The notes: generated by a model from the sequence alone, not told the origin. 64,000 bases of DNA from Porticoccus sp. (GCA_002733125.1 NVUM01000004.1:77357-141356), one strand, 5' to 3'; shown: positions 11,871 through 24,830, counted from the first letter of the stretch. Made by a program: numbers and translations.

Positions 11871-11939
11871 GTAAAGCCATTGAGTTGGTAATTGATTCGC
11901 GTAAAATCGCAATTTCACCTGCACAAAGCAGATGAATTT

Positions 11940-12022
11940 TCCTAAGGGGCGGCGCAAGCCTGAGACATCCTCGGATGAACCCTTTGAACCTGATCCGGAT
12001 AGTACCGGCGTAGGGATAGGAC
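11940..12022 (+). promoter_or_regulatory. TPP (thiamin pyrophosphate) riboswitch
   Basis: THI-box signatures in order: ggGGCGGCGCAAGCCTGAGA ... ACCCTTTGAACCTGATCCGGATAGTACCGGCGTAGGGA. Confidence 0.92.
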
Positions 12023-12067
12023 GCAAAAGTTACCGTTCACTCCTCCCATATCCGGGTCTCTTTAACA

Positions 12068-14272
12068 ATGTTAATGAGGCTCATCATGATAGACCTGTTT
12101 CGAAAAATGCCATTACTGGCATTTGCCTGCCTGCTTTCCGGCGTTGTGCTTGCTACAGAACCCGAGGGTCCTGAGGGCACAGTAGCCGGGACCGAGACCA
12201 CCATAGAGACGTTATCCGCTGAAACCATTCAGGAAGTGGTGGTGACTGCCCAGTTTCGCGATGTATCCGTGCTGGATACCGGCAACAGTATCAGCATCCT
12301 CGACAGTCAGCAGATTGAACGCCGTCAGGCCCGTCACCTGGATCAGCTCCTGAATCTGGTTCCGAATGTGAATTTTTCCAGCGGCGCATCGCGGGGCAAG
12401 TTTATCCAGATCCGTGGTATCGGCGAGCGCAGTCAGTTTATCGAGCCGCTGAATCCTTCAGTAGGGCTGCTGATTGACGGGATTGATTTCAGTGGTATCG
12501 GCGGTGCGGCAACAACCCTCGATTTGCGTCAGGTTGAAGTGTTGCGTGGTCCCCAGGGCACCCTCTACGGTGCCAACGCGCTGGCGGGGTTGATCAACAT
12601 GAAATCAAATAATCCCTCCGACGTATTTGAAGGCCACATTGAAACCTCTATTGCCGAATACGAAACCCGCACCACCAGCGCAGTATTGAGTGGACCGATT
12701 GCCGATAATCTGGGCTACCGTCTGGCCGTGCAGGGTCACCGCAGTGACGGCTATATCGATAACGAATTTCTCAATCGCAAGGATACCAGCAACATTGATG
12801 AGCTCACCGCCCGGGGCAAGCTGCACTGGCGAGTCAGCGACCGGTTGCAGCTGAACTTTACCGGTTTCTACGTGGATGCGGACAACGGTTATGATGCCTT
12901 TTCGCTGGATAACACCCGCAAGACGCTCTCCGATCAGCCGGGTAACGACCGCCAGGAGTCCACGGCCTTTGCGGTTGAGAGTATCTGGCAGGCCTCCGAG
13001 CAGTTTGAGGTGGTCGGACTGGTCAGTTATGCCGATAGCAACCTTGAATACAGCTATGATGAGGACTGGAGCTTTGCGGCTATCTGTGATGGTCTGCCCT
13101 GCGAGGGTTGGGCCTATTCCTCTTTTGATCGCTACCAGCGCAGCCGCTATAACGGCAGCATGGACCTCAAGCTGGTTTCCAGTGAAGCGGGACGTCTTTT
13201 CAATGGTGCCAGCGACTGGGTGCTGGGCATTTATTACCGCAGGCAGAATGAGTCGCTGCTGCGCGAATACACCTATGCCGACGGTGATTTCAACAGTGAT
13301 TTTGACACCCGCAACCGGGCTGTCTACGGTCAGTTGGACACCCGGCTCAGCGACCGTTTAAAGCTGGTCAGCGGGGCGCGAATCGAGTTTCGCCGTGCCG
13401 ATTATCTGGACAGCGAGGGGGTTAGTCACAATACCAGTGAAAGACTCTGGGGTGGCCGTCTGGCTCTGGAATACAGTCTGACGCCGGAAACCCTGCTTTA
13501 TGGTCTGGTCTCCCGGGGTTACAAGGCCGGTGGGGTCAACAGCAACCCTGAACTGGACCCCGGTGCGCGGGATTTTGATACCGAATATATGTGGAATATT
13601 GAAACCGGCATCAAGGGTGACTGGCTGGATCGCACCCTGCAGGTTCAACTGGCACTGTTTTATCAAATGCGCCGGGATATGCAGGTCAAGCAGTCACTGG
13701 TCAAGCCGATTACCGGTGATCTGTGCCCCTGCAGTTTTATTGACACGTTTGATAATGCGTCCAAAGGTCGCAATTACGGCCTTGAGCTGATGTTTGACTG
13801 GCTGGTGGTGGACGATGTTCAGGTCTACGGCAGTCTCGGCCTGCTCCGTGCAACCTACCAGGATTTTGAAAGCTTCAGTCATGTGGATGCCGATCCGGAA
13901 AACAATGTGGCGGTCGATCTCGATGGCCGGGAACAGGCCCATGCGCCTTCCTATCAGTTTTCCCTGGGGGTCGAAGTGGCCTTAACCGGGCGGATGTCGG
14001 CAGCACTGGAAATGGAAGGCAAGCAGCAGTTCTATTTGTCCCCGCGGCACAATGCCAGGTCAAACCGCTACGAGCTGTTCAATGCCCGGCTTGAGTACCG
14101 GGTACAGCAGTGGGATTTCATACTGTGGGGACGTAATCTCACAGATCGGGATGTGATCGTTCGCGGCTTTGGTGGCTTCGGCAATGACCCCCGCAATTTT
14201 TATCAGACTGAACCCTACTATCAATATGGTGAGCCACGCATCGTTGGCGCCACCGCCAAATACCGTTTTTAA
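12068..14272 (+). CDS. TonB-dependent outer-membrane receptor, predicted thiamin(-derivative) transporter
   Basis: 734 aa; signal peptide, plug domain (VVVTAQFRDVSVLDTGNSISIL...VEVLRGPQGTLYGANALAGLINM), C-terminal aromatic residue (KYRF). First gene after the TPP riboswitch. ATG at 12086 is an alternative start. Confidence 0.88.
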   Translation: MLMRLIMIDLFRKMPLLAFACLLSGVVLATEPEGPEGTVAGTETTIETLSAETIQEVVVTAQFRDVSVLDTGNSISILDSQQIERRQARHLDQLLNLVPNVNFSSGASRGKFIQIRGIGERSQFIEPLNPSVGLLIDGIDFSGIGGAATTLDLRQVEVLRGPQGTLYGANALAGLINMKSNNPSDVFEGHIETSIAEYETRTTSAVLSGPIADNLGYRLAVQGHRSDGYIDNEFLNRKDTSNIDELTARGKLHWRVSDRLQLNFTGFYVDADNGYDAFSLDNTRKTLSDQPGNDRQESTAFAVESIWQASEQFEVVGLVSYADSNLEYSYDEDWSFAAICDGLPCEGWAYSSFDRYQRSRYNGSMDLKLVSSEAGRLFNGASDWVLGIYYRRQNESLLREYTYADGDFNSDFDTRNRAVYGQLDTRLSDRLKLVSGARIEFRRADYLDSEGVSHNTSERLWGGRLALEYSLTPETLLYGLVSRGYKAGGVNSNPELDPGARDFDTEYMWNIETGIKGDWLDRTLQVQLALFYQMRRDMQVKQSLVKPITGDLCPCSFIDTFDNASKGRNYGLELMFDWLVVDDVQVYGSLGLLRATYQDFESFSHVDADPENNVAVDLDGREQAHAPSYQFSLGVEVALTGRMSAALEMEGKQQFYLSPRHNARSNRYELFNARLEYRVQQWDFILWGRNLTDRDVIVRGFGGFGNDPRNFYQTEPYYQYGEPRIVGATAKYRF

Positions 14273-14299
14273 GGGCATTGCCCCAGGGAGATTTGCCGT

Positions 14300-14548
14300 A
14301 TGCAGGTGACCATTGATGTCAGTATGTATCCCAACCGGGAGGACTTTATTCCGCCGATCAAAGGGTTTATCGAGAAGATTAACCACTATCCGGGGCTTGA
14401 GGTACAGACCTTTCCCACCAGTACGGTGGTGCAGGGTGAATACCAGGCGGCCATGCAGGCGGTACAGGACACCATCGCCGCCTGCCGTGAGGAATTCGGC
14501 ATGGCGGTGTATGTGCTCAAGGTGATTCCCGGATACGAGGCACTCTGA
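14300..14548 (+). CDS. YkoF/MTH1187-like thiamin-binding domain protein
   Basis: 82 aa; MQVTIDVSMYPNREDFIPPIKGFIEKINHYPGLEVQTFPTSTVVQGEY..; size and pattern fit small YkoF-related proteins, and it lies in a riboswitch-led operon. Confidence 0.75.
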   Translation: MQVTIDVSMYPNREDFIPPIKGFIEKINHYPGLEVQTFPTSTVVQGEYQAAMQAVQDTIAACREEFGMAVYVLKVIPGYEAL

Positions 14549-15163
14549 ATGTCGGACTGGTTGAGCCTGGAAGCACTGGCGGTGGTTTTTTCATTGGCCT
14601 ATCTCGTGCTGGCGATGCGAGAGAACAGCCTGTGCTGGTTTTGTGCTTTTTTTGGCACGGCTATTTATATCTGGGTGTTCGGCGGTGTCAGCCTCTACAT
14701 GGGCTCGTTGCTGCACGTCTATTATCTGGTGATGGCGGTATATGGGTGGTATCAGTGGCGTCGCGGTGGTGTCGGACATCGCGGCGTCAAAATATCCCGA
14801 TGGGGGCTAACGCAACACTTGTATGCGTTGCTCGCTGTTGTGCTGGCCTCCGCCGTGTCCGGCCACCTGCTGTCCCAACACACCGATGCCCACTTGCCCT
14901 ATCTGGACTCCTTCACTACCTGGGGTGGGGTGCTGACCACGGTGATGGTGGCCCGCAAGATTCTGGAAAACTGGCTCTACTGGATTGTCGTCGACGGTGC
15001 ATCGATTTACCTTTATCTGGATCGTGAGCTCTACCTCACGGCCGGCCTGTTTGCTGTTTATCTGGTGCTGGTCGTACTCGGTTTTATCCGCTGGAGAAAA
15101 CATTACCTTGAACAGCCAATCACTGAGCGACGGCAAGAGTTTGCTGCACCAGACGTTATCTGA
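14549..15163 (+). CDS. pnuT: PnuC-family transporter, likely thiamin transporter PnuT
   Basis: 204 aa, multi-TM; NSLCWFCAFFGTAIYIWVFGG, LYMGSLLHVYYLVMAVYGWYQWR, VARKILENWLYWIVVDGASIYLYLDRELYLTAGLFAVYLVLVVLGF. Confidence 0.82.
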   Translation: MSDWLSLEALAVVFSLAYLVLAMRENSLCWFCAFFGTAIYIWVFGGVSLYMGSLLHVYYLVMAVYGWYQWRRGGVGHRGVKISRWGLTQHLYALLAVVLASAVSGHLLSQHTDAHLPYLDSFTTWGGVLTTVMVARKILENWLYWIVVDGASIYLYLDRELYLTAGLFAVYLVLVVLGFIRWRKHYLEQPITERRQEFAAPDVI

Positions 15164-15875
15164 ATGGCGGCGCTGGGAAGTCTGTCTGCCAGGTAAACCG
15201 CGTCTGGTAAAACCCATGTCCGGCGGTATGACCAACCTGTCTTTTCTGGTGGAAAGTGGTTCCAGGCGGGCCGTGGTGAGAGTCAATACGCCGCACAGCA
15301 AAGTGTTGGGGATTGACCGCGAAAGGGAAGAGACACTGCTTCGCCTGTTGCAGTCCACCGGTTATGTACCCAAGCTGCTTTATGTGACCGGCGAGGTGCT
15401 GGTGACGGAATTTGTCGACGGACGAGTATGGGATGCGGGGACGGTTGATAACGATCATCGGCTAAACCGGCAACTGGTACCCCTGCTCGAAAAAATCCAG
15501 GCGTTTCCCAAACCGGCTACAGCCAGCCGTTTCAGTTATTTGAATCATTGTCGACACTACCTTGCCCAGCTGGCCGTTCGCCCCGCGGCGGCAGATGCAA
15601 TCGAAGAGCATGCCGCAGCTATTGATGCGGGTTCCTGGCAACCGGTCATCTGTCACCATGACCTGATACCGGAAAATATCATCGATACGGATCGTGGCCC
15701 GGTGATACTGGATTGGGAATATGCCGCCTGGGGGCACCCTGCCATGGATCTGATACGGCTGGGTGTTGTTGAAAGCCATCACAGCGCCGAGGATCGCCTC
15801 AAACTACGGGATCTCCAGCGCGGCATGGACGCTCTCTGGATGGCGCTGACGGATCAGTTGGCGGGTGTTGTTTAA
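15108..15875 (+). CDS. thiK: APH/choline-kinase-like phosphotransferase, predicted thiamin kinase
   Basis: MSGGMTNLSFLVESGSRRAVVRVNTP, ICHHDLIPENIIDTDRGPVILDWEYAAWGHPAMDLIRLG (kinase HxDxxxxN and DWE motifs). Start taken as TTG at 15108, overlapping pnuT. Confidence 0.78.
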   Translation: MNSQSLSDGKSLLHQTLSEWRRWEVCLPGKPRLVKPMSGGMTNLSFLVESGSRRAVVRVNTPHSKVLGIDREREETLLRLLQSTGYVPKLLYVTGEVLVTEFVDGRVWDAGTVDNDHRLNRQLVPLLEKIQAFPKPATASRFSYLNHCRHYLAQLAVRPAAADAIEEHAAAIDAGSWQPVICHHDLIPENIIDTDRGPVILDWEYAAWGHPAMDLIRLGVVESHHSAEDRLKLRDLQRGMDALWMALTDQLAGVV

Positions 15876-15928: not shown

Positions 15929-16348
15929 TCAGGCGGAGACCTCCTTGTGAGCCGCCGCAATCATGGTGGATGCGAGGATGCCGTAAGCGACTATCCATGC
16001 TTCCTTTACGTCCTCGGTAAAGCCGTCGCCAAGGCCGGTTTGCAGGGTTTCTATCAGCGCACTGCCGACGGTATCGTAATGGGCGTCCTCAACTCCGTAG
16101 GCGAGATGACGCTTGCCCATGGCTTCCACTACGGGCACCAGTTCGTCGAGTCGATCCAGCATGCGCACCGCAGCACCGATCATTTCCATCAGCTTTTTGC
16201 CCTGCTCCCTCATATTTCCCTTGAACAGGGGTTTCAGGGTCGGATCAGCGGCAAACAGGTTGTTGTAGAACAGCGAGGCTGCGGTATCGGCAATCGGTTC
16301 CACCTTGGCCCAGGAGGTTTTGCAGGCATGTATTTGCTCGGGTGTCAT
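15929..16348 (-). CDS. Single-domain globin (bacterial haemoglobin)
   Basis: 139 aa; VEPIADTAASLFYNNLFAADPTLKPLFKGNMREQGKKLMEMIGAAVRMLDRLDELVPVVEAMGKRHLAYGVEDAHYDTVGSALIETLQTGLGDGFTEDVKEAWIVAYGILASTMI. Confidence 0.93.
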   Translation of the reverse strand: MTPEQIHACKTSWAKVEPIADTAASLFYNNLFAADPTLKPLFKGNMREQGKKLMEMIGAAVRMLDRLDELVPVVEAMGKRHLAYGVEDAHYDTVGSALIETLQTGLGDGFTEDVKEAWIVAYGILASTMIAAAHKEVSA

Positions 16349-16359
16349 GGATATATCCT

Positions 16360-16728
16360 CTATTGTGGTTGGGTGGCCAGCTGCGAAAGCATATAGCTGA
16401 CCGCCTGTGCCATTTGTTCATCGGTTAATGTTGAACCACCGCGGGCGGGCATCAGCCCGTAACCTTCGGTAGCATGTTTAACAAGGGTTTCCTCTCCCTG
16501 TCTGATTCTGGGTGCCCACATTCTGTCGTTGCCGATAATGGGCGCGCCGTTGATGCCCGATGCGTGGCAGACGCGACAGTTGGCTTTTACCAGTGGTTCA
16601 CCGGGGTGGGCCGAAGGTGGTGCCTGCCTGTCAGGTGTACTGCCGTCGACGGATGAGTCCGGCTTGTCGGAGCAGGCCGACAAGCCGAGACAAAGAACAG
16701 CAGCGATCACACATTTTTTGTTAAACAT
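16360..16728 (-). CDS. Small c-type cytochrome lipoprotein (cytochrome c5-like)
   Basis: 122 aa; lipobox LGLSAC; ANCRVCHASGINGAPIIG (CXXCH); AMSYML-like C-terminus. Confidence 0.88.
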   Translation of the reverse strand: MFNKKCVIAAVLCLGLSACSDKPDSSVDGSTPDRQAPPSAHPGEPLVKANCRVCHASGINGAPIIGNDRMWAPRIRQGEETLVKHATEGYGLMPARGGSTLTDEQMAQAVSYMLSQLATQPQ

Positions 16729-16758
16729 AGGACCACCAGACTCAGAAATTCCGATCAG

Positions 16759-17343
16759 TTAAAGGGGGACGCGAATAACCACCCCCCCCATCACGTCGCC
16801 GATATCGAAGTCGGTTCTGGGGGAGTCCTTGTGATCGTTATGGCAGGTTGTGCAGGCGGGGGAGACGGCAACATCGGGATATACCGCCGTAAAGTAGGTC
16901 ACGTCACCCAGCTTTTCCTCGCCGTAGAAGTTTTCACCGGGATTGTCCACGGTGTATTGCAGGCCCTCTTCTTCAAGGGGGGTCTTGGGTGCATTCTGCT
17001 TGTTGATAGGCCACAGGGATTGCAGTGAGTAGGTGAATTCATCGGTCACTTCCGCGACGGCCTCTGAGCCTGCCCGGAACATCTGTGCCGGCAGTAATGC
17101 CCCGTTTTCTATTTCCTTCCAGTGTTCATCTGGCTTGATGGCACCCGCGCCATTGGGTCCCAGGCGCTGAATGATCAATTTGGTGTAGTTGGCCCTGTCG
17201 GCATTCATGACCGCAAACAGTGAGTCAGTATAGAGTTTCGGCGGTATGCCGGCCTTTGCTGGTGGTGTTTCATTGCAGGCGGTAATAACAAGGCTACTGG
17301 CGAGCAGTGTAGTCATGATGGCTATTTTTTTGACGTGTTTCAT
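16759..17343 (-). CDS. DUF3365 (Tll0287-like) haem-binding lipoprotein
   Basis: 194 aa; lipobox LVITAC; single CXXCH (SPACTTCHNDHKDSPRTDFDIGDVMGGVVIRVPL). Confidence 0.82.
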   Translation of the reverse strand: MKHVKKIAIMTTLLASSLVITACNETPPAKAGIPPKLYTDSLFAVMNADRANYTKLIIQRLGPNGAGAIKPDEHWKEIENGALLPAQMFRAGSEAVAEVTDEFTYSLQSLWPINKQNAPKTPLEEEGLQYTVDNPGENFYGEEKLGDVTYFTAVYPDVAVSPACTTCHNDHKDSPRTDFDIGDVMGGVVIRVPL

Positions 17344-17413
17344 GGTGAATTCCTCGTGGTTTCAGAGTAATGACATGGGGGGTGGGTTGTGGTGGTTACA
17401 GCCGTGAATTGCA

Positions 17414-18727
17414 TCAGTCAGCCACCCGTTTGAGTGACCAGTCGATGGACGGGATATGGGTGGCTGGTTTGCCGTTGAAGTTGTTCCTGATCAGCGCCGG
17501 GTCAGCCAGGGCGTCAATGGAAAAGCCGAGATTGTGGCACTGCATGCAAACCGGCCGGATCATCTTTTCATTGGGGCGCAGGTTGTGGTTCTGGTTGTGA
17601 TTGACCTGTACCACTGTTTCCCCATCGACGATGTTCTCCGCTCTCGGCATATGACAGGTGGCACAGCTGACGGCCTGTTCCACCGGAATGGCACCGGCGA
17701 TGGCCTGGGTTAACAGCTGTCCGTGGGGCGAGCTGTCAAATCCCCGCGAGTGGTCATCGTTATGGCAGGTCAGGCAGGCTTCGCTGGCGGCAAACAGGGT
17801 GTCTGTCCGGTGTGCACTGTGGCAGCTGTTGCAACCCTGCTGCAGAGACAATGCCGTCTCCTTGAAGGACATTGTGGAATCGGCAGGGCGGATAGCGGGC
17901 AGGGACTGGGCCAGTCGCATCCCGTGTTTGCCCGATTTATAGCTTTCGGCTTCGTGAATATGGCAGGTCTGGCATTGTGCAATGCCGGGTTTTTCGAGCC
18001 ATTCATTGGAGCTGGCATCACTGTGACAGCCACCGCAGTCCACGCCGGCATCGGCATGGCTGCTGCCAGACCATGCTTGATGGATATCCGGGTGTGCCTT
18101 TTTCTGCTCGGGGAATGTCGGCTGTTGCTCGGGTACGTGCTTGCTGGCGAGCATGGCGGCGCCGTTGGGGTTGGTGAGGCGAGCCATTTCTTTCAGCCAT
18201 GGCCCCGAGTGGTTGTGAACGAGAAAGTCTTCAAAGAGTGCCCGGTTGTCGTGATAGTTGTGGCAGCCTGCGCTGGCACAGCTATCAAAGGCCAGATCCC
18301 GATGGCTCTCCCGGTCGTCGCCGACGTCGGTATGACAGTGAAAACAATAATCCTCTGGCAGGGTTACCCCCATCGGAGCTGTGATTTCTCTGTGGTGTTC
18401 GGTGTGACAGCTGACACAGTAGCGGGCATCCACCACACTGAGCCGGTCTGCATTGCGCGGGTCGGTAAACTTCTTTTTGGGGTGCGTATCGTTGGCCTCT
18501 GCCAGTTCCGCACCATGGCAGCCGGCACAGGCTTCCTGGATCAGCTCGGGGCCACCAAAGGCCTCTGTATGGCAGCTGCTGCAGGCCAGTTCGATCTGGA
18601 AGTGCCCATGGCTGGTCTCGCCGATCAGTAGTGCCTGTTTATTGTCGGCTTTAAGCAGGATATAGCCGTAGTAGCCTGCTATCGCCAGCGTGACAAGAAT
18701 CCATGTGGCCCAGATGAATTTTCTCAA
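17414..18727 (-). CDS. Membrane-anchored multihaem cytochrome c
   Basis: Ten CXXCH motifs (CSSCH, CAGCH, CVSCH, CFHCH, CGGCH, CQTCH, CNSCH, CLTCH, CATCH, CMQCH) plus one CX4CH (CASAGCH); N-terminal TM RKFIWATWILVTLAIAGYYGYIL. Likely TTG start at 18727 rather than 18886. Confidence 0.88.
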   Translation of the reverse strand: MRKFIWATWILVTLAIAGYYGYILLKADNKQALLIGETSHGHFQIELACSSCHTEAFGGPELIQEACAGCHGAELAEANDTHPKKKFTDPRNADRLSVVDARYCVSCHTEHHREITAPMGVTLPEDYCFHCHTDVGDDRESHRDLAFDSCASAGCHNYHDNRALFEDFLVHNHSGPWLKEMARLTNPNGAAMLASKHVPEQQPTFPEQKKAHPDIHQAWSGSSHADAGVDCGGCHSDASSNEWLEKPGIAQCQTCHIHEAESYKSGKHGMRLAQSLPAIRPADSTMSFKETALSLQQGCNSCHSAHRTDTLFAASEACLTCHNDDHSRGFDSSPHGQLLTQAIAGAIPVEQAVSCATCHMPRAENIVDGETVVQVNHNQNHNLRPNEKMIRPVCMQCHNLGFSIDALADPALIRNNFNGKPATHIPSIDWSLKRVAD

Positions 18728-18743
18728 TGCACCGGCCTCTGCA

Positions 18744-20774
18744 TCAGTAGTAATACACGGTGAGGATATGGAAAGCCAAAAGCACGGGCAGGGGCCACGA
18801 CACAATGATGTGCAGCCATTGCATAGACTTTCTTGTGCCCTGCGCGGCCCCTGTCCGCAGTTTGTGGCCAAGGCCAATGGCACCACTGGTAAAGGCGCCC
18901 ATCAGGAGTACTGCCAGAAAATTAACGATCAGCAACTGATTGAGATTTGATCCCAGATGAAAACCGCTGTGCAGTACCAGTGTGATACAGCACAACACCC
19001 CCAGCGAGGCATGGACCAGACGCCATCCGGAGAACTTGCCCATCCAGCGCCAGGACAGGCGTTTGCGCAGTGACATCAGCAATCCGATAGCGGTCAGCCC
19101 CAGCAAAGTAAAGCCCGTGACCTGTTTCCAGAATTTGTCGTTCCAGATGCCCTCGAACCAGCCCTGTTGTTGAACGCTGTCGGCTACTTTTGCTTCCGGC
19201 CAGAAGGCGATCAGCGCCACCAGTGCGGTGGCCAGCAGTGCCCCCGCGGTGAGGGTGGTGGCCCCGGATTCCCTCTCCATGCCGACAACACCCAAAAGCT
19301 GTTGCAGCAAAGGTTTGCAAGAACCGCAGACGGTGCCGGCCCGGGTGCGGTCCTGGAGTTCAGGCAGTGTGCTGCAATTGTTGGCGATGGCGCTGGACAG
19401 TACGCCGTAACTGATATTGTTGCACTGGCAAATGATCGTGCCACTGGGCCAATTGCCAATATCGTCACCGCCCTTGCCCCATAATGTGCCGGTCAGATAA
19501 AACCGCAGCAGGTGCCAGAACCGGATTTTGCGTGCATTCTGATAGGCCTCCTGGACGCGTCGGGACTCTGGCCAGTTGCCAATAGCCACCGCACCGATGA
19601 TCTTGCCCCGGAGCAGCACCAGCTTTCGATAGGCCCCGCTGGACTTGTCAAAATATTGAAGTTCTCTCTGGAAGGGTCTGCTGGGTAAATCACTGATTTC
19701 CCCGAGACTGCAGACATCGGTGCCGACCACCTTGAGGTGGCTGATAGCCATGGAACCCAGATAGCGCGGCAGGTTTTCCTGTGGTTCGCTGGCAATGATT
19801 TCCGCGGTTACTGCCGCCTGTTCGTAACCGGGGTTGACCAGCCCATAGGTGATGCCCAGGTGTTCGCAGCACTCACCGATAGCAAAAATATCGGGATCCG
19901 ATGTCCTCATCTGGTCATTGACCAGAATGCCCGTGCCCACCGGGATACGGGCTTTTCGAGCCAGTTCCAGGTTCGGCGTGATACCGGTACAGAACAACAC
20001 GGTATCGCAGTGAATCGTCTCGCCGTCCCGGGTGATGACCCCGGTGACATGCTCAAAACCCTCCACAGAGCGAACGCCTGAATGAGTGATAACCTCGATA
20101 CCCAGGGCGCGGACTTCGGCTTCGAGAAGCGCTGCTGCCGGTTCATCCAACTGCCGGTTCATCAGGCGCGAACTCTGCTGAACCACGGTGACTCTGGTAT
20201 TGAATTTGAGCAGCCCCTTGGCGGCCTCCAGTCCCAACAGACCGCCGCCCACCACGACAATATGACGAGAGCGAAGGATTCGCACATAGAGACTTTCTGT
20301 GTCCTTGAGACTGCGAAAACTGAATACGCCCTGGCGCTCGATACCTGGAATGTTGGGAATATGAGCGCGGGCACCGGTGGCCAGCACCAACTTGTGATAG
20401 TGGAAGCGGGTGCCGCTGGCATCGGTAACAGTTTTCCGTTCGCGGTCAATTTCCACGATGGCAGCGCTGGTAAACTGAAAATTGGGGTGATTGCCGAGCG
20501 CGGGCAGCGGCAGATCGATATCATCCCGGTTAATCTCGCCGGCCAATAGCGCGGAGAGCTGAATGCGGTTGTAGGGCTTGCAGGCTTCGTCACCGAACAG
20601 GTGAACAGCCAGTTGGGGTTTTCTGGCGAGAAGATCGTGGGTAAAGCGCATGCCGACGGGACCGGCGCCTATGACAATAATGCCGATGTCATTGTGGGAC
20701 GCCTCTACCAGCGCCCGGGTGCTGGTATCAGAGGCTTCGCAATAACCAATAGTGCTCGATGCTGTAGCGACCAT
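18744..20774 (-). CDS. NirB-like FAD/NAD(P) oxidoreductase fused to BFD [2Fe-2S] domain and C-terminal cytochrome b-like membrane domain
   Basis: IIVIGAGPVGMRFTHDLL, VVGGGLLGLEAAKGLL, ILVNDQMRTSDPDIFAIGECCEH; BFD-type cysteines ICQCNN...TVCGSCKPLLQQ; C-terminal TM segments with His (LVHASLG, LHSGFHLG, MQWLHIIVSWPLPVLLAFHIL). ATG at 20774 preferred over the 20819 GTG. Confidence 0.85.
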   Translation of the reverse strand: MVATASSTIGYCEASDTSTRALVEASHNDIGIIVIGAGPVGMRFTHDLLARKPQLAVHLFGDEACKPYNRIQLSALLAGEINRDDIDLPLPALGNHPNFQFTSAAIVEIDRERKTVTDASGTRFHYHKLVLATGARAHIPNIPGIERQGVFSFRSLKDTESLYVRILRSRHIVVVGGGLLGLEAAKGLLKFNTRVTVVQQSSRLMNRQLDEPAAALLEAEVRALGIEVITHSGVRSVEGFEHVTGVITRDGETIHCDTVLFCTGITPNLELARKARIPVGTGILVNDQMRTSDPDIFAIGECCEHLGITYGLVNPGYEQAAVTAEIIASEPQENLPRYLGSMAISHLKVVGTDVCSLGEISDLPSRPFQRELQYFDKSSGAYRKLVLLRGKIIGAVAIGNWPESRRVQEAYQNARKIRFWHLLRFYLTGTLWGKGGDDIGNWPSGTIICQCNNISYGVLSSAIANNCSTLPELQDRTRAGTVCGSCKPLLQQLLGVVGMERESGATTLTAGALLATALVALIAFWPEAKVADSVQQQGWFEGIWNDKFWKQVTGFTLLGLTAIGLLMSLRKRLSWRWMGKFSGWRLVHASLGVLCCITLVLHSGFHLGSNLNQLLIVNFLAVLLMGAFTSGAIGLGHKLRTGAAQGTRKSMQWLHIIVSWPLPVLLAFHILTVYYY

Positions 20775-20794
20775 TTTTTGCCCGTTCAATAAAA

Positions 20795-20837
20795 AAGCCT
20801 GTCGAACCACTGTTGGCACAAGTGACTCGGCAGGCTT
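20795..20837 (-). terminator. Strong intrinsic terminator-like hairpin in the leader of the redox operon
   Basis: Minus strand: AAGCCTGCCGAGTCACT-tgtgccaac-AGTGGTTCGACAGGCTT followed by TTTTATTG. The stem is about 17 bp with one mismatch and two G-U pairs. Confidence 0.75.
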
Positions 20838-21070
20838 CTTTACCTGGAACTTAATGTGTTGCCACTACCCGGTAAGAGAGAGATTCTGGGGCGGCTATCT
20901 ATGTCGATGCATAATAGATGCCAACCTGAAAAATACGTTTAATACATTGAAAAACAGGGGTTTTTCTTATTATCGTGAGAGGTCTAAAGACAGACCGGAG
21001 CAGAAAGCGTGCACTGTTTTTGCCACAGAGGTGGCGTTAATGGTGCACTCGCCATAGATGATAAAGCGGG

Positions 21071-21823
21071 TCAGGCCTGATTGTCGTTAGCGGTAGTCGA
21101 GCGGGGTTTGATACACCGGCCAAACAGAATGCCCACTTCAAACAATAGCCACATGGGTACTGCAAGCAGGGTTTGGGACAGAATGTCCGGGGGAGTGAGC
21201 AGCATACCGAACACAAAACAGATAACAAACACATAGGGGCGTTTATTAGCCAGCTGGTCCGGTTCGATAATACCCATCCAGGTCAGGATTACCACGCCGA
21301 TTGGAATTTGAAAACTGATGCCAAACGCAAAAAACAATTTCAGGACGAAATCCAGATAGCTGCGAATATCCGTCATGACGGCCACGCCTTCCGGGCCGAC
21401 ACTGGTGAAGAACATAAAGACCAGTGGGAATACCACGTAGTAAGCGAAAGCCATTCCACCGTAGAACAGCAGAACGCTGGAAAAAAACAGGGGCAGCACA
21501 ATTTTCTTTTCACGCTGGTAGAGCCCGGGGGCAACGAAGGCCCATACCTGATAGAGAATAAAGGGCATAGCGGCAAAGATTGACAGCACCAGCGTCAATT
21601 TAAAGGGGGTGAGAAACGGTGACGCGACATCGGTGGCAATCATCGACGAGGTGTTGGGTAGATGCAGCCTGAGGGGTTCCGAAATGTACAGGTAGAGGTC
21701 GTTACTGAAGGAAAATAGCCCCAGAAAGATCAACAGCACTACAATCACAGAGCGCAACAGGCGATTGCGCAATTCAATGATATGGCCAATGAAGGGTTGG
21801 CTCAGCAGTTTTTCTTCACTCAT
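21071..21823 (-). CDS. tatC: Sec-independent translocase TatC
   Basis: 250 aa; [43 protein letters not shown], six-TM pattern. Confidence 0.96.
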
Positions 21824-22146
21824 GGTTTGGTTTCGTCATGCGTGTCAGCTGTCTCGGCTGACCGTTCATCAGTGTCAGGTTTTTTGTCCTGTGGGCCGGG
21901 CAGGTCCTCGAGCTCCGCTTTGGCGTTTTTCAGATCGCGCATCAGTTTCTCGTTGTGCAACTGCCGACGAATGTCATCCATGCCGACTTCGTTTTCGAGT
22001 TCCTGGCGGACGGAGGAAAATGTCTGGCGGATCCTGCCAATCCAGAGGCCCATGGTGCGCAGGGTCTGGGGCAGGCGCTCCGGTCCCATGACTACTAGGG
22101 CCACAACGGCGATAACTAATAATTCGGCAAAGCCAATATCAAACAT
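21820..22146 (-). CDS. tatB: Sec-independent translocase TatB
   Basis: [40 protein letters not shown]. Confidence 0.95.
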
Positions 22147-22176
22147 ACGGCAGTATCTGCAAGGTCGCTGTCACGC

Positions 22177-22437
22177 CTACTGGTCTGTGGTTTTCTTTTC
22201 GCCGGTCGACGCGGCACTGTCATCGGTATTCATCTGGGTATTGGCCGATTTACTGTCGTCGAGGTGTTCCGGTTCCTTGTCCGAATCGCCGGACATGGAT
22301 TCCTTGAATCCTTTGACGGCACCGCCGATGTCGGTGCCGATACCACGAAGTTTTTTGGTGCCAAAAATCAGCGCCACGATAATCAGAATAATTAACAGTT
22401 CCTGCCAGCCAAAGCCCATAACTCTCTCTCTTATCAA
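22177..22437 (-). CDS. tatA: Sec-independent translocase TatA
   Basis: [42 protein letters not shown]; true start is likely the internal Met. Confidence 0.95.
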
Positions 22438-22782
22438 TCAGGTTGAATTGCGTTGCGCTTTCTCTTCGAGGCCCGACAGATTGAAGCGTCGTTCCAGTTC
22501 TCTGAGAACCTGTTCAGGGCCCTCACCGAGATGGGACAGCATCACCAGTGTGTGAAACCAGAGATCTGCGGTTTCATAAATCACTTTGCTGTTGTCATTG
22601 CTGGCCGCTGCATCCTTGGCGGCCAGAATCGTTTCAGTACACTCTTCGCCTATCTTTTCCAGGATTTTATTCAAACCCTTGTGGTGCAGGCTGGCCACAT
22701 AAGACTCCTGATGCGAGTAGCCTTTGCGATCTTCCAGTATCTGGCTTAATCGGGTCAATATATCATCACGGCAACTGTTCAT
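22438..22782 (-). CDS. hisE: Phosphoribosyl-ATP pyrophosphatase
   Basis: [32 protein letters not shown]...[20 protein letters not shown]. Confidence 0.95.
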
Positions 22783-23162
22783 GAATAAATGTCTCTGGGA
22801 TCTTTGATAACAGGGTCCACCGTGTGCCACTGTCCGTCTTTCAGGACACGATAAAAACAGGATGTTCGCCCCGTATGGCAGGCGATCCCGCCGAGCTGTT
22901 CAACCTGTAACACGATAACATCGCCGTCGCAGTCCAGACGAATTTCCCCGACTCGCTGAATATGACCGGATTCCTCACCCTTGCGCCACAGTTTGCGGCG
23001 GGAGCGGGACCAGTACACGGCGCGACCTTCCGAGGCGGTGAGCGTTAGCGCCTCCCTGTTCATCCAGGCCACCATCAGAATACGACCTGACGCGGCGTCC
23101 TGTGCAACAGCGGGCAGCAGGCCATCTTCATTCCAGGTGATTTGATCGAGAAAGTCAGTCAT
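22779..23162 (-). CDS. hisI: Phosphoribosyl-AMP cyclohydrolase
   Basis: [69 protein letters not shown]. Confidence 0.95.
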
Positions 23163-23219
23163 GGCGGCCATTATGACAGTTGTGGTTGGATCGGCAATAC
23201 GGATTTTTCAGGGCGAACG

Positions 23220-24830
23220 TCAGCGCACTATCAATAACAGCACACCGATTCCCACCAGAGCCAGGCTGCCGACGGACATTTGCTGGATTGTATCCGTCCA
23301 TTCAGGGAAAGCACTGCCCAGACCAATACCGATCAGTGCCGCGCCGAGCAGGGTTCGCCGGCGCTGTCCCGTTCTGACCGGGACACTGGCAGGAATTTCC
23401 TTCAGGCCGACTTCTTTCGCCTGTAGTCGTTCCAGGGTCTGAAAAACCAGCTGGGGTAACTGGGGAAACTGCTCCAGCCATTCCGGGCCGTGGCGCTTGA
23501 GCTGTTCCATCAGGGCGTTTGGCTTGAAGCGTTCTTTCAGCCAGCGCTCCAGGAAGGGGTGAGCCGTGGCCCACAGATCCAGGTCTGGATACAGTTGACG
23601 GCCGAGTCCCTCGATATTGAGGAGGGTCTTCTGCAGCAAAACCAGCGATGGCTGTACTTCCATATCGAAGCGCCGGGCGGTGCGAAACAGGTTGACCAAC
23701 AGCAGTCCAAAGGAGATTTCGCGCAAAGGGCGCTCAAAAATGGGCTCGCAGACAGTGCGTATGGCGGCGGCAAATTCACCCACATTGGTGCCCTCCGGAA
23801 CCCAGCCCGACAGGACATGGAGTTCTGCCACCTGTTGATAGTCGCGGCGGAAGATGGCCAGTAGATTGCGGGCCAGATAATACTGGTCGGCTTCGGTCAG
23901 GGTGCCCATAATCGCGCAGTCCACCGCCAGGTATTTTGGTTGCTGCGGGTCCACTGGATCGACAAATATATTGCCGGGATGCATATCGGCATGAAAAAAA
24001 TTGTGCTCGAACACCTGGGTGAAAAAGATTTCCACTCCACGTTCGGCAAGTACTTTGAAGTTGGTCTCGTGCTGTTGCAGGGTGGTGATATCCGTGACCG
24101 GTATGGCGTAGATGCGTTCCATCACCAGGACTTTTTCATTGGTGTGTGACCAGAATACCTCGGGTACGTAGAGCATTGGAGAGCGATCAAAATTGCGCCG
24201 CAACATGGAGGCATTGGCGCCTTCCCGTTGCAGGTTGAGTTCATCGAGAATGGTGTTTTGATAGTCGCTGACCACTTCGGTCAAGCGCATTCTCCGGCCA
24301 TCGACGGTATTGCTTTCGAGCCAGCGGGCCATGGTGAACAGCAGCCTGATATCCTGGCCAATGGTTTTTTCGATGCCGGGCCGAATGGCCTTGACGACCA
24401 CTTCGCGCCCGTTGTGCAGTGTCGCTGCGTGGACCTGTGCCACGGAGGCGGAGGCTAGGGGCTCCCGGTCAAAATGCAGAAACAGATTGTCGACACTGTC
24501 CTCCAGTGCCTGCTCGACGATGGCGACGAAATGGGCTTTGTCGAAAGGCGGGACATTGTCCTGCAGTTTGTCCAGTTGTTGGCAGATATCCGATGGGATC
24601 AGATCCGGCCGGGTAGACAGCAATTGGCCGAACTTGATGAAAATGGGCCCGAGATCTTCCATGGCCTGCCGCAACCGTTCGCCACGCGGTTGTTTTGGTT
24701 CGGGTAGCAGCCGATTGAGCTTCAGAAGTAGCCTGACGCCCCAGGGCAGTCTGTCTGCATCGAGAAAGGTGTCCAGTCGGTAACGAATGGTGGTGCGCAG
24801 GATCGTGCTGAGCCGACGGATTCTTGACAT
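23220..24830 (-). CDS. ubiB: Ubiquinone biosynthesis atypical kinase UbiB
   Basis: 536 aa; LGPIFIKFGQLLSTRPDLIPSDICQQLDKLQDNVPPF, ASASVAQVH, FFHADMHPGNIFVD, two C-terminal TMs. Confidence 0.96.
   Translation of the reverse strand: MSRIRRLSTILRTTIRYRLDTFLDADRLPWGVRLLLKLNRLLPEPKQPRGERLRQAMEDLGPIFIKFGQLLSTRPDLIPSDICQQLDKLQDNVPPFDKAHFVAIVEQALEDSVDNLFLHFDREPLASASVAQVHAATLHNGREVVVKAIRPGIEKTIGQDIRLLFTMARWLESNTVDGRRMRLTEVVSDYQNTILDELNLQREGANASMLRRNFDRSPMLYVPEVFWSHTNEKVLVMERIYAIPVTDITTLQQHETNFKVLAERGVEIFFTQVFEHNFFHADMHPGNIFVDPVDPQQPKYLAVDCAIMGTLTEADQYYLARNLLAIFRRDYQQVAELHVLSGWVPEGTNVGEFAAAIRTVCEPIFERPLREISFGLLLVNLFRTARRFDMEVQPSLVLLQKTLLNIEGLGRQLYPDLDLWATAHPFLERWLKERFKPNALMEQLKRHGPEWLEQFPQLPQLVFQTLERLQAKEVGLKEIPASVPVRTGQRRRTLLGAALIGIGLGSAFPEWTDTIQQMSVGSLALVGIGVLLLIVR

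Follow-up and report, generated by a model that had tools for sequence, protein, structure and literature searches.

Periplasmic multihaem reductases normally receive their electrons from the quinone pool. Handling of nitrogen oxides has also been described within nitrate assimilation itself, namely for the narK-bjgb-flp-nasC genes of Bradyrhizobium, where the globin Bjgb protects the cell from the nitric oxide (NO) made in this pathway, thus providing a tested precedent (PMC4724949). A third relevant group is the PF11845 family, described as a haem-c Cache domain, of which a signalling member without an axial cysteine binds NO tightly and a stand-alone member with an axial cysteine looks redox-type (2026 preprint, PMC12889525). 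The subject of this report is an operon of Porticoccus sp. (Gammaproteobacteria), located at positions 15929-20774 of a stretch of 64,000 nucleotides (GCA_002733125.1, NVUM01000004.1:77357-141356; hereafter the window). It consists of five minus-strand genes separated by short gaps, which we designate FUS, DEC, TLL, CYC and SDgb, and all five are present as a first reading of this DNA (the original prediction) had described them, co-directional and closely spaced. Each of its parts can be placed in a known superfamily. Electrons from NAD(P)H seem to be carried directly across the membrane by a flavoprotein derived from NirB, with an 11-haem cytochrome as their acceptor. The best explanation that we can offer, for which we see an even balance of probability, is an electron line which runs on NAD(P)H without quinones, is used alongside nitrate assimilation and feeds periplasmic nitrogen-oxide reduction, with the globin clearing NO from the cytosol.

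The membrane flavoprotein and its cytochrome partners

The first gene, FUS (P0001, 676 amino acids; 18747-20774, minus strand), encodes a protein in which profile searches recognize Pyr_redox_2, Rubredoxin_C and Fer2_BFD domains, followed by membrane helices over approximately 180 amino acids. The NirB profile TIGR02374 aligns to residues 32-501 and scores 377.7 bits, under its cut-off of 578.35. Since the alignment covers only positions 1-472 of the 794 of this profile, FUS corresponds to the part of NirB that takes up electrons; the sirohaem/[4Fe-4S] NIR_SIR half is missing and a membrane domain takes its place. Residues C449, C451, C483 and C486 are invariant in FUS homologues and are the predicted ligands of the BFD-type [2Fe-2S] cluster. 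Furthermore, H588/H602 and H655/H669 are invariant in 52 homologues, the two histidines of each pair lying 14 residues apart within one helix. Histidine pairs at such spacing in two helices typically bind two stacked b haems, and the four invariant membrane histidines are predicted to form two b-haem sites. Each pair would have its first histidine close to the cytosol and its second close to the periplasm, because the flavin half is cytosolic and the basic loops are inside.

Structure prediction of the fusion yielded a confident model with five C-terminal helices (mean predicted local distance difference test score, pLDDT, of 91). The membrane domain gives weak Pfam matches to cytochrome b561 (Ni_hydr_CYTB), DUF4405 and Ferric_reduct, sequence profiles retrieved no solved homologue of it, and the matches listed by Foldseek for the whole model covered the soluble half only. 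The original prediction of an FAD/NAD(P) protein with a BFD-type [2Fe-2S] module and a histidine-bearing cytochrome b-like domain is borne out by these data and refined to four invariant histidines in two haem sites. Its further statement that this is not assimilatory NirBD also holds, as FUS lacks the sirohaem half and a true sirohaem NirB is encoded elsewhere in the same genome.

The product of DEC (P0002, 437 amino acids, TTG start; 17417-18727, minus strand) is a periplasmic cytochrome with an N-terminal anchor, ten CXXCH motifs and one CX4CH motif, as originally described, and both motif counts are kept in 55/55 homologues. In the AlphaFold2 model, which was built haem-free, the C-terminal half (residues approximately 200-437) is confident and the N-terminal half is poor. 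The top Foldseek matches are hydroxylamine oxidoreductase (HAO; 6t5e, E 4e-4), the Kuenenia reducing HAO-like protein (6h5l) and IhOCC (4qo5), and the profile matches are led by NrfA and the eight-haem nitrite reductase, in both cases with the qualification that haem motifs inflate such fold and profile matches of DEC. Judged from these matches, the C-terminal half is likely to be akin to the superfamily of HAO, NrfA and octahaem nitrite reductase (ONR). The segment CLTCH-x3-H326-x8-H335 ... CATCHMPR ... H377 ... CMQCH presumably resembles the order of NrfA around its distal histidine, which we take as a lead only. An assignment of DEC as a pentahaem NrfA was rejected, given the 11 haems in all 55 homologues and the lack of a CXXCK motif.

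The hydroxylamine oxidoreductases among the closest folds would also fit an inward flow, in which DEC oxidizes hydroxylamine or another nitrogen compound in the manner of HAO and FUS returns the electrons to NAD+. We consider this extremely improbable: electron flow from hydroxylamine to NAD+ would need a driving force to overcome its unfavourable energetics, the genomic context described below is nitrate assimilation and thus reduction, and the N-terminal half of FUS is the NADH-oxidizing half of NirB.

Two lipoproteins complete the periplasmic set, both in agreement with the original description of a DUF3365 haem lipoprotein and a small cytochrome c lipoprotein. TLL (P0003, 194 amino acids; 16762-17343, minus strand) is a Tll0287-like (DUF3365, sCache_heme) haem c lipoprotein which matches PF11845 (E 1.3e-17), with a CXXCH motif in 99% of 79 homologues. 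Its only cysteines are those of the lipobox and of the CXXCH motif, so that no axial cysteine is available, and 56/79 homologues have three cysteines in all. CYC (P0004, 122 amino acids; 16363-16728, minus strand) is a small mono-haem lipoprotein of the Cytochrome_CBB3-type family, whose invariant M93 is the probable sixth haem ligand.

The properties of TLL raise the question of NO or redox sensing as the main role of the operon, with TLL as an NO-responsive haem-Cache protein that is kept reduced by FUS and DEC while the globin limits NO. The sCache_heme domains that are fused to signalling modules do bind NO (PMC12889525), and TLL is without the axial cysteine of the redox-type members. The stand-alone members of the family, however, have been assigned redox roles (PMC12889525), neither a kinase nor a receptor is conserved in the operon, and a sensor would hardly need an accessory protein with 11 haems, which together make this role improbable.

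The arrangement of these genes is conserved far past close relatives, which counters the first ground for refutation named with the original prediction. Species genomes of GTDB were scanned with a DEC alignment, which gave 404 confirmed relatives; the best 80, from named genomes, were kept and their neighbourhoods rebuilt, with the other operon genes playing no part in the selection. In this set FUS lies directly upstream of DEC in 80/80 loci and TLL lies downstream in 79/80, a co-linearity in genomes selected by a single gene which is far beyond chance; CYC is an optional member (48/80). The median gaps, measured from the first possible start codons, are 6 nucleotides between FUS and DEC and 29 between DEC and TLL. 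Carriers are found in many families of Gammaproteobacteria, in Alphaproteobacteria (Hyphomicrobiales) and Burkholderiales, as well as in two metagenome-assembled genomes of Nitrospirota and one of Poribacteria, for which contamination is possible. They include cultured Alcanivorax, Marinobacter, Hahella and Pseudomonas benzenivorans. In a Porticoccus relative (G007), the operon is without a globin and the FUS gene reads in two frames, owing to a frameshift or an assembly error.

The open-access literature yielded no prior description of the operon, in line with the original remark that no characterized system of this composition was known to the reader; mentions of DUF3365 in Idiomarina and Geobacter were followed up and found to be unrelated. 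PADLOC returned no defence-system match, and a check for plasmid carriage gave no match for DEC or FUS.

Links to nitrate assimilation

The leader of the operon (approximately 20790-20846, minus strand), which lies beyond the interval of the original prediction, contains a candidate attenuator. A strong intrinsic terminator at 20794-20838 (fold z-score -3.96) ends about 16-20 nucleotides before the ATG of FUS at 20774, which leaves no room for a promoter in between, so that transcription probably passes through the terminator. Its 5' arm is overlapped by a P2-like hairpin, CAGGU-AAAGAA-GCCUG (20831-20846), with A1 and G4 in a six-base loop. A hexaloop with these two bases is the signature needed for recognition by ANTAR domains (PMC3369931), and the genome encodes a NasT with such a domain. 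Over the 2.26 Mb of this genome, exactly two copies of the 12-mer GGTAAWGAAGCC are present, one in the FUS leader and one in the leader of the nas cluster, where it likewise overlaps a terminator. The latter cluster (C2:28001-48000) comprises a porin, preceded by the ANTAR-type leader, the ANTAR-type NasT, an NMT1_2/nasS-like sensor, NrtA, NrtB, NrtD, an FAD reductase of 406 amino acids, a NirB region and a NasA of 884 amino acids.

Five congeners (G009, G011, G015, G005 and G002) have the 12-mer approximately 60 nucleotides upstream of FUS and at one more site, which in G009, G011 and G005 is near nirB. In congeners that lack the operon, the extra matches to the 12-mer were considered as another NasT target and discarded, as they lie inside coding sequence, have no terminators and are attributed to chance. 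Among more distant relatives, a terminator stands just before FUS in 11/70 leaders, 7 of them with an A-x-x-G hexaloop hairpin beside or over it, compared with 1% and 0% in mononucleotide shuffles; the leaders of L113 and L053 contain both P1 and P2 when read by eye. An Rfam search of the leader returned sub-threshold chance matches only. From these sequence features, the operon in the genus of the window is probably under nitrate-responsive antitermination by NasS-NasT, together with the nas operon.

The neighbourhoods point in the same direction. Genes for nrtA/nrtB (nrtABD), nasT or NIT proteins are found within approximately 10 kb in 26/80 loci, where they can enclose the operon directly, as in the orders nasT-FUS-DEC-TLL-SDgb-nrtA-nrtB-nrtD (L099, L101) and nrtA-nrtB-nrtD-porin-FUS-DEC-TLL-SDgb-nasT (L095, L121). 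The neighbour representatives that were checked have the ANTAR domain of NasT and match nitrate ABC transporter models. At the level of whole genomes, in a co-occurrence set of 321 class genomes of which 26 have DEC, NirB above cut-off is present in 21/26 carriers against 125/295 others (p 1.6e-4, relatedness ignored) and a NasA match in 17/26 against 89/295 (p 7e-4, relatedness likewise ignored). The five carriers of this set without NirB above cut-off include two, G144 and G220, in which NasA reaches the contig end and the absence is uninformative. The idea that FUS-DEC stands in for a sirohaem NirB was dropped, since each of the 34 named carriers examined encodes a NIR_SIR protein (PF01077); sulfite reductases fall into this family as well, which makes the NirB count more informative about the link. 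A 1.7 Mb genome (G271) with two DEC matches, one of them in a full FUS-DEC-TLL operon, encodes two DsrAB-like NIR_SIR proteins and gives no NirB or NasA match; it is possibly a carrier outside nitrate assimilation.

The last gene, SDgb (P0005, 139 amino acids; 15932-16348, minus strand), encodes a cytosolic single-domain globin (PF00042). Aligned to 3s1i, its Tyr28 (B10), Gln49 (E7) and His81 (F8) are conserved in 97%, 100% and 97% of 36 homologues, and TyrB10/GlnE7/HisF8 is the usual set of NO-dioxygenating bacterial globins. In the set of 65 loci whose flanks are complete, the globin is single-domain in 28 and truncated (Bac_globin) in 27, while 10 loci have neither class and none has both, a mutual exclusion with a Fisher p of 3.5e-10 if relatedness is ignored. 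The truncated form is followed by a Fer2/FAD_binding_6/NAD_binding_1 reductase (an Hmp-type module, FdR) in 25/27 cases and the single-domain form in 0/28. On the DEC tree the globin class changes 3-6 times, the clade of the window being a single-domain island amid relatives with truncated globins. That one globin class could take the place of a distant other at this position is an argument for retention of the globin function and against a hitchhiking gene. The original prediction had correctly placed a cytosolic single-domain globin here, and the context supports its suggestion of an NO-handling partner. Its other suggestion, a direct recipient of electrons from the chain, finds no support, as the globin is predicted to be cytosolic and the truncated variant has a reductase gene of its own. 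In four related carriers (L082, L088, L107 and L093) there is no globin, and the nrt porin and nrtA/nrtB directly follow TLL, in some cases with nasT in between.

These links also bear on the possibility of an Mtr-type line for extracellular electron transfer or the reduction of metals. Multihaem and lipoprotein cytochromes are common to both, and DEC gives weak matches to the DmsE decahaem family and to MtrC/F domains. An MtrB-type barrel or a surface cytochrome is not conserved in the operon, however, an Alginate_exp porin is only an occasional neighbour and occurs in nrt clusters, and the linkage to nitrate genes and globins, together with the co-occurrence with NirB and NasA, renders this line highly improbable.

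Proposed electron route and its alternatives

We propose that FUS oxidizes NAD(P)H in the cytosol and that the electrons would pass from FAD to the [2Fe-2S] cluster, then to the two stacked b haems and thereby to the periplasmic side, where they would enter the anchored DEC. This is essentially the route first suggested for the locus, from NAD(P)H via FAD, [2Fe-2S] and membrane haem b to periplasmic multihaem cytochromes, and the domain content, the invariant ligands and the confident model of the fusion all support it. Nitrite, NO or hydroxylamine would most likely be reduced at or near the HAO/NrfA-like C-terminal half of DEC, with TLL and CYC acting as outer redox partners or as NO-reactive haem proteins. 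The cytosolic globin, either single-domain or truncated with its Hmp-type Fer2/FAD/NAD reductase, would remove NO arising from nitrate and nitrite reduction. The nas linkage and the globin support a nitrogen-oxide substrate. The original interpretation was correct in part; it had missed the connection to nitrate assimilation (nas/nrt neighbours, the NasT-type leader, NirB and NasA) and the resemblance to HAO and NrfA.

More tentatively, and with rather less than even probability, FUS-DEC may be a periplasmic reductase of nitrogen oxides of a hitherto unknown kind, coupled to NAD(P)H and independent of quinones, in which NirB has been re-wired across the membrane to an 11-haem enzyme of the HAO/NrfA superfamily. 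Co-induced with nitrate assimilation, it would recover or detoxify escaped nitrite, NO or hydroxylamine, and the interchangeable globin would do likewise in the cytosol.

Several observations weigh against the proposed explanation. DEC and HAO superpose with template modelling (TM) scores of only 0.25-0.30, and the DEC model is of poor quality in its N-terminal half; the motifs conserved in the 55 homologues are CXXCH and CX4CH, with no CXXCK haem; and the 11 conserved histidines outside the motifs match the 11 haems, all of which could therefore be bis-histidine ligated and leave no open site. As to regulation, the leader motif occurs in a minority of carriers, in the window leader only P2 is recognizable and its genus has no clear P1 hairpin, and the 12-mer has chance matches inside genes of congeners without the operon. 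Most loci are without nitrate neighbours, and the genome counts of NirB and NasA carry no correction for phylogeny.

The histidine count also speaks for DEC as an electron wire only; FUS, DEC, TLL and CYC would then pass NADH electrons to another periplasmic enzyme or a soluble cytochrome and serve as a valve for excess reductant whenever the NADH pool is over-reduced by nitrate assimilation or low oxygen. TLL and CYC, small and with one haem each, have the appearance of carriers, and the DEC sequence also matches wire-like cytochromes (Cytochrom_c3_2 and the MtrC/F domain). The top fold and profile matches of DEC are, however, catalytic members of the HAO, NrfA and ONR group, no terminal reductase is conserved among the operon neighbours in the 80 loci, and a valve leaves the globin found in nearly every locus unexplained; on balance we regard the wire as unlikely. 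If periplasmic nitrogen-oxide reduction is indeed the function, current annotation of the nitrogen cycle misses such an arm in a system that recurs in hundreds of genomes.

Within the window, the operon is directly preceded by tatC, tatB/tatA-like, hisE/hisI-like and ubiB-like genes (21071-24830, minus strand; named by eye from the sequence). This position beside the tat locus recurs in the genus (also in G007, G009 and G012) and is unlinked from the nas cluster. On the other side, a thiamine pyrophosphate (TPP) riboswitch is followed by genes for a TonB-dependent receptor, a small Thiamine_BP-like protein, a PnuC-family (NMN_transporter) protein and an APH/choline-kinase-like protein (11935-15875, plus strand), a probable operon for thiamine uptake and salvage that converges on the globin gene.

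Comparison with described systems

From its sequence context, the operon would serve nitrate assimilation by reducing or detoxifying nitrogen oxides and falls outside the known families (NirBD, NrfA, Mtr and narK-bjgb-flp-nasC), which suggests a dedicated arm for handling nitrogen oxides in nitrate assimilation of widespread, mostly marine bacteria. NirBD is matched over its FAD/NAD(P) and BFD [2Fe-2S] part (FUS 32-501 against NirB 1-472), and both serve nitrate-using cells; FUS differs by its di-haem b membrane domain in place of the sirohaem/[4Fe-4S] half, and a genuine NirB is encoded separately in the genome. With NOX/FRE/STEAP proteins and cytochrome b561, FUS shares the paired histidines 14 residues apart in two helices and a predicted FAD-fed transmembrane di-haem b arrangement, whereas its five-helix domain, NirB-type flavin domain with BFD and multihaem cytochrome partner set it apart.

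NrfA/NrfH, ONR and HAO-like proteins are likewise periplasmic multihaem proteins and resemble the C-terminal half of DEC in profile and, at TM-scores of only about 0.3, in fold. NrfA has five haems, usually with a catalytic CXXCK haem, whereas DEC has 11 haems with an invariant CX4CH and no CXXCK; moreover, NrfA is fed by quinol via NrfH or NrfBCD, and DEC would be fed from NAD(P)H by FUS. TLL has the CXXCH of the sCache_heme (Tll0287/DUF3365) family as a stand-alone member (PMC12889525), and differs by lacking the axial cysteine of Tll0287 and of the P. putida protein and by being a lipoprotein in a fixed operon. The Mtr-type conduit combines the decahaem MtrA with the MtrB barrel and a surface cytochrome, and the FUS operon has no conserved barrel or surface cytochrome. 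Finally, narK-bjgb-flp-nasC combines a single-domain globin with a flavin reductase in a nitrate-assimilation operon controlled by NasST, with NO detoxification as the outcome (PMC4724949). The FUS operon resembles it by its nitrate-related neighbours in 26/80 loci and, in the window, by a leader that suggests such control. The Bradyrhizobium operon is without a multihaem cytochrome, a membrane flavocytochrome or a DUF3365 protein, and its Flp is a separate soluble reductase, in contrast to FUS-DEC-TLL-(CYC)-globin with periplasmic cytochromes, a composition that sets the present operon apart from that group.

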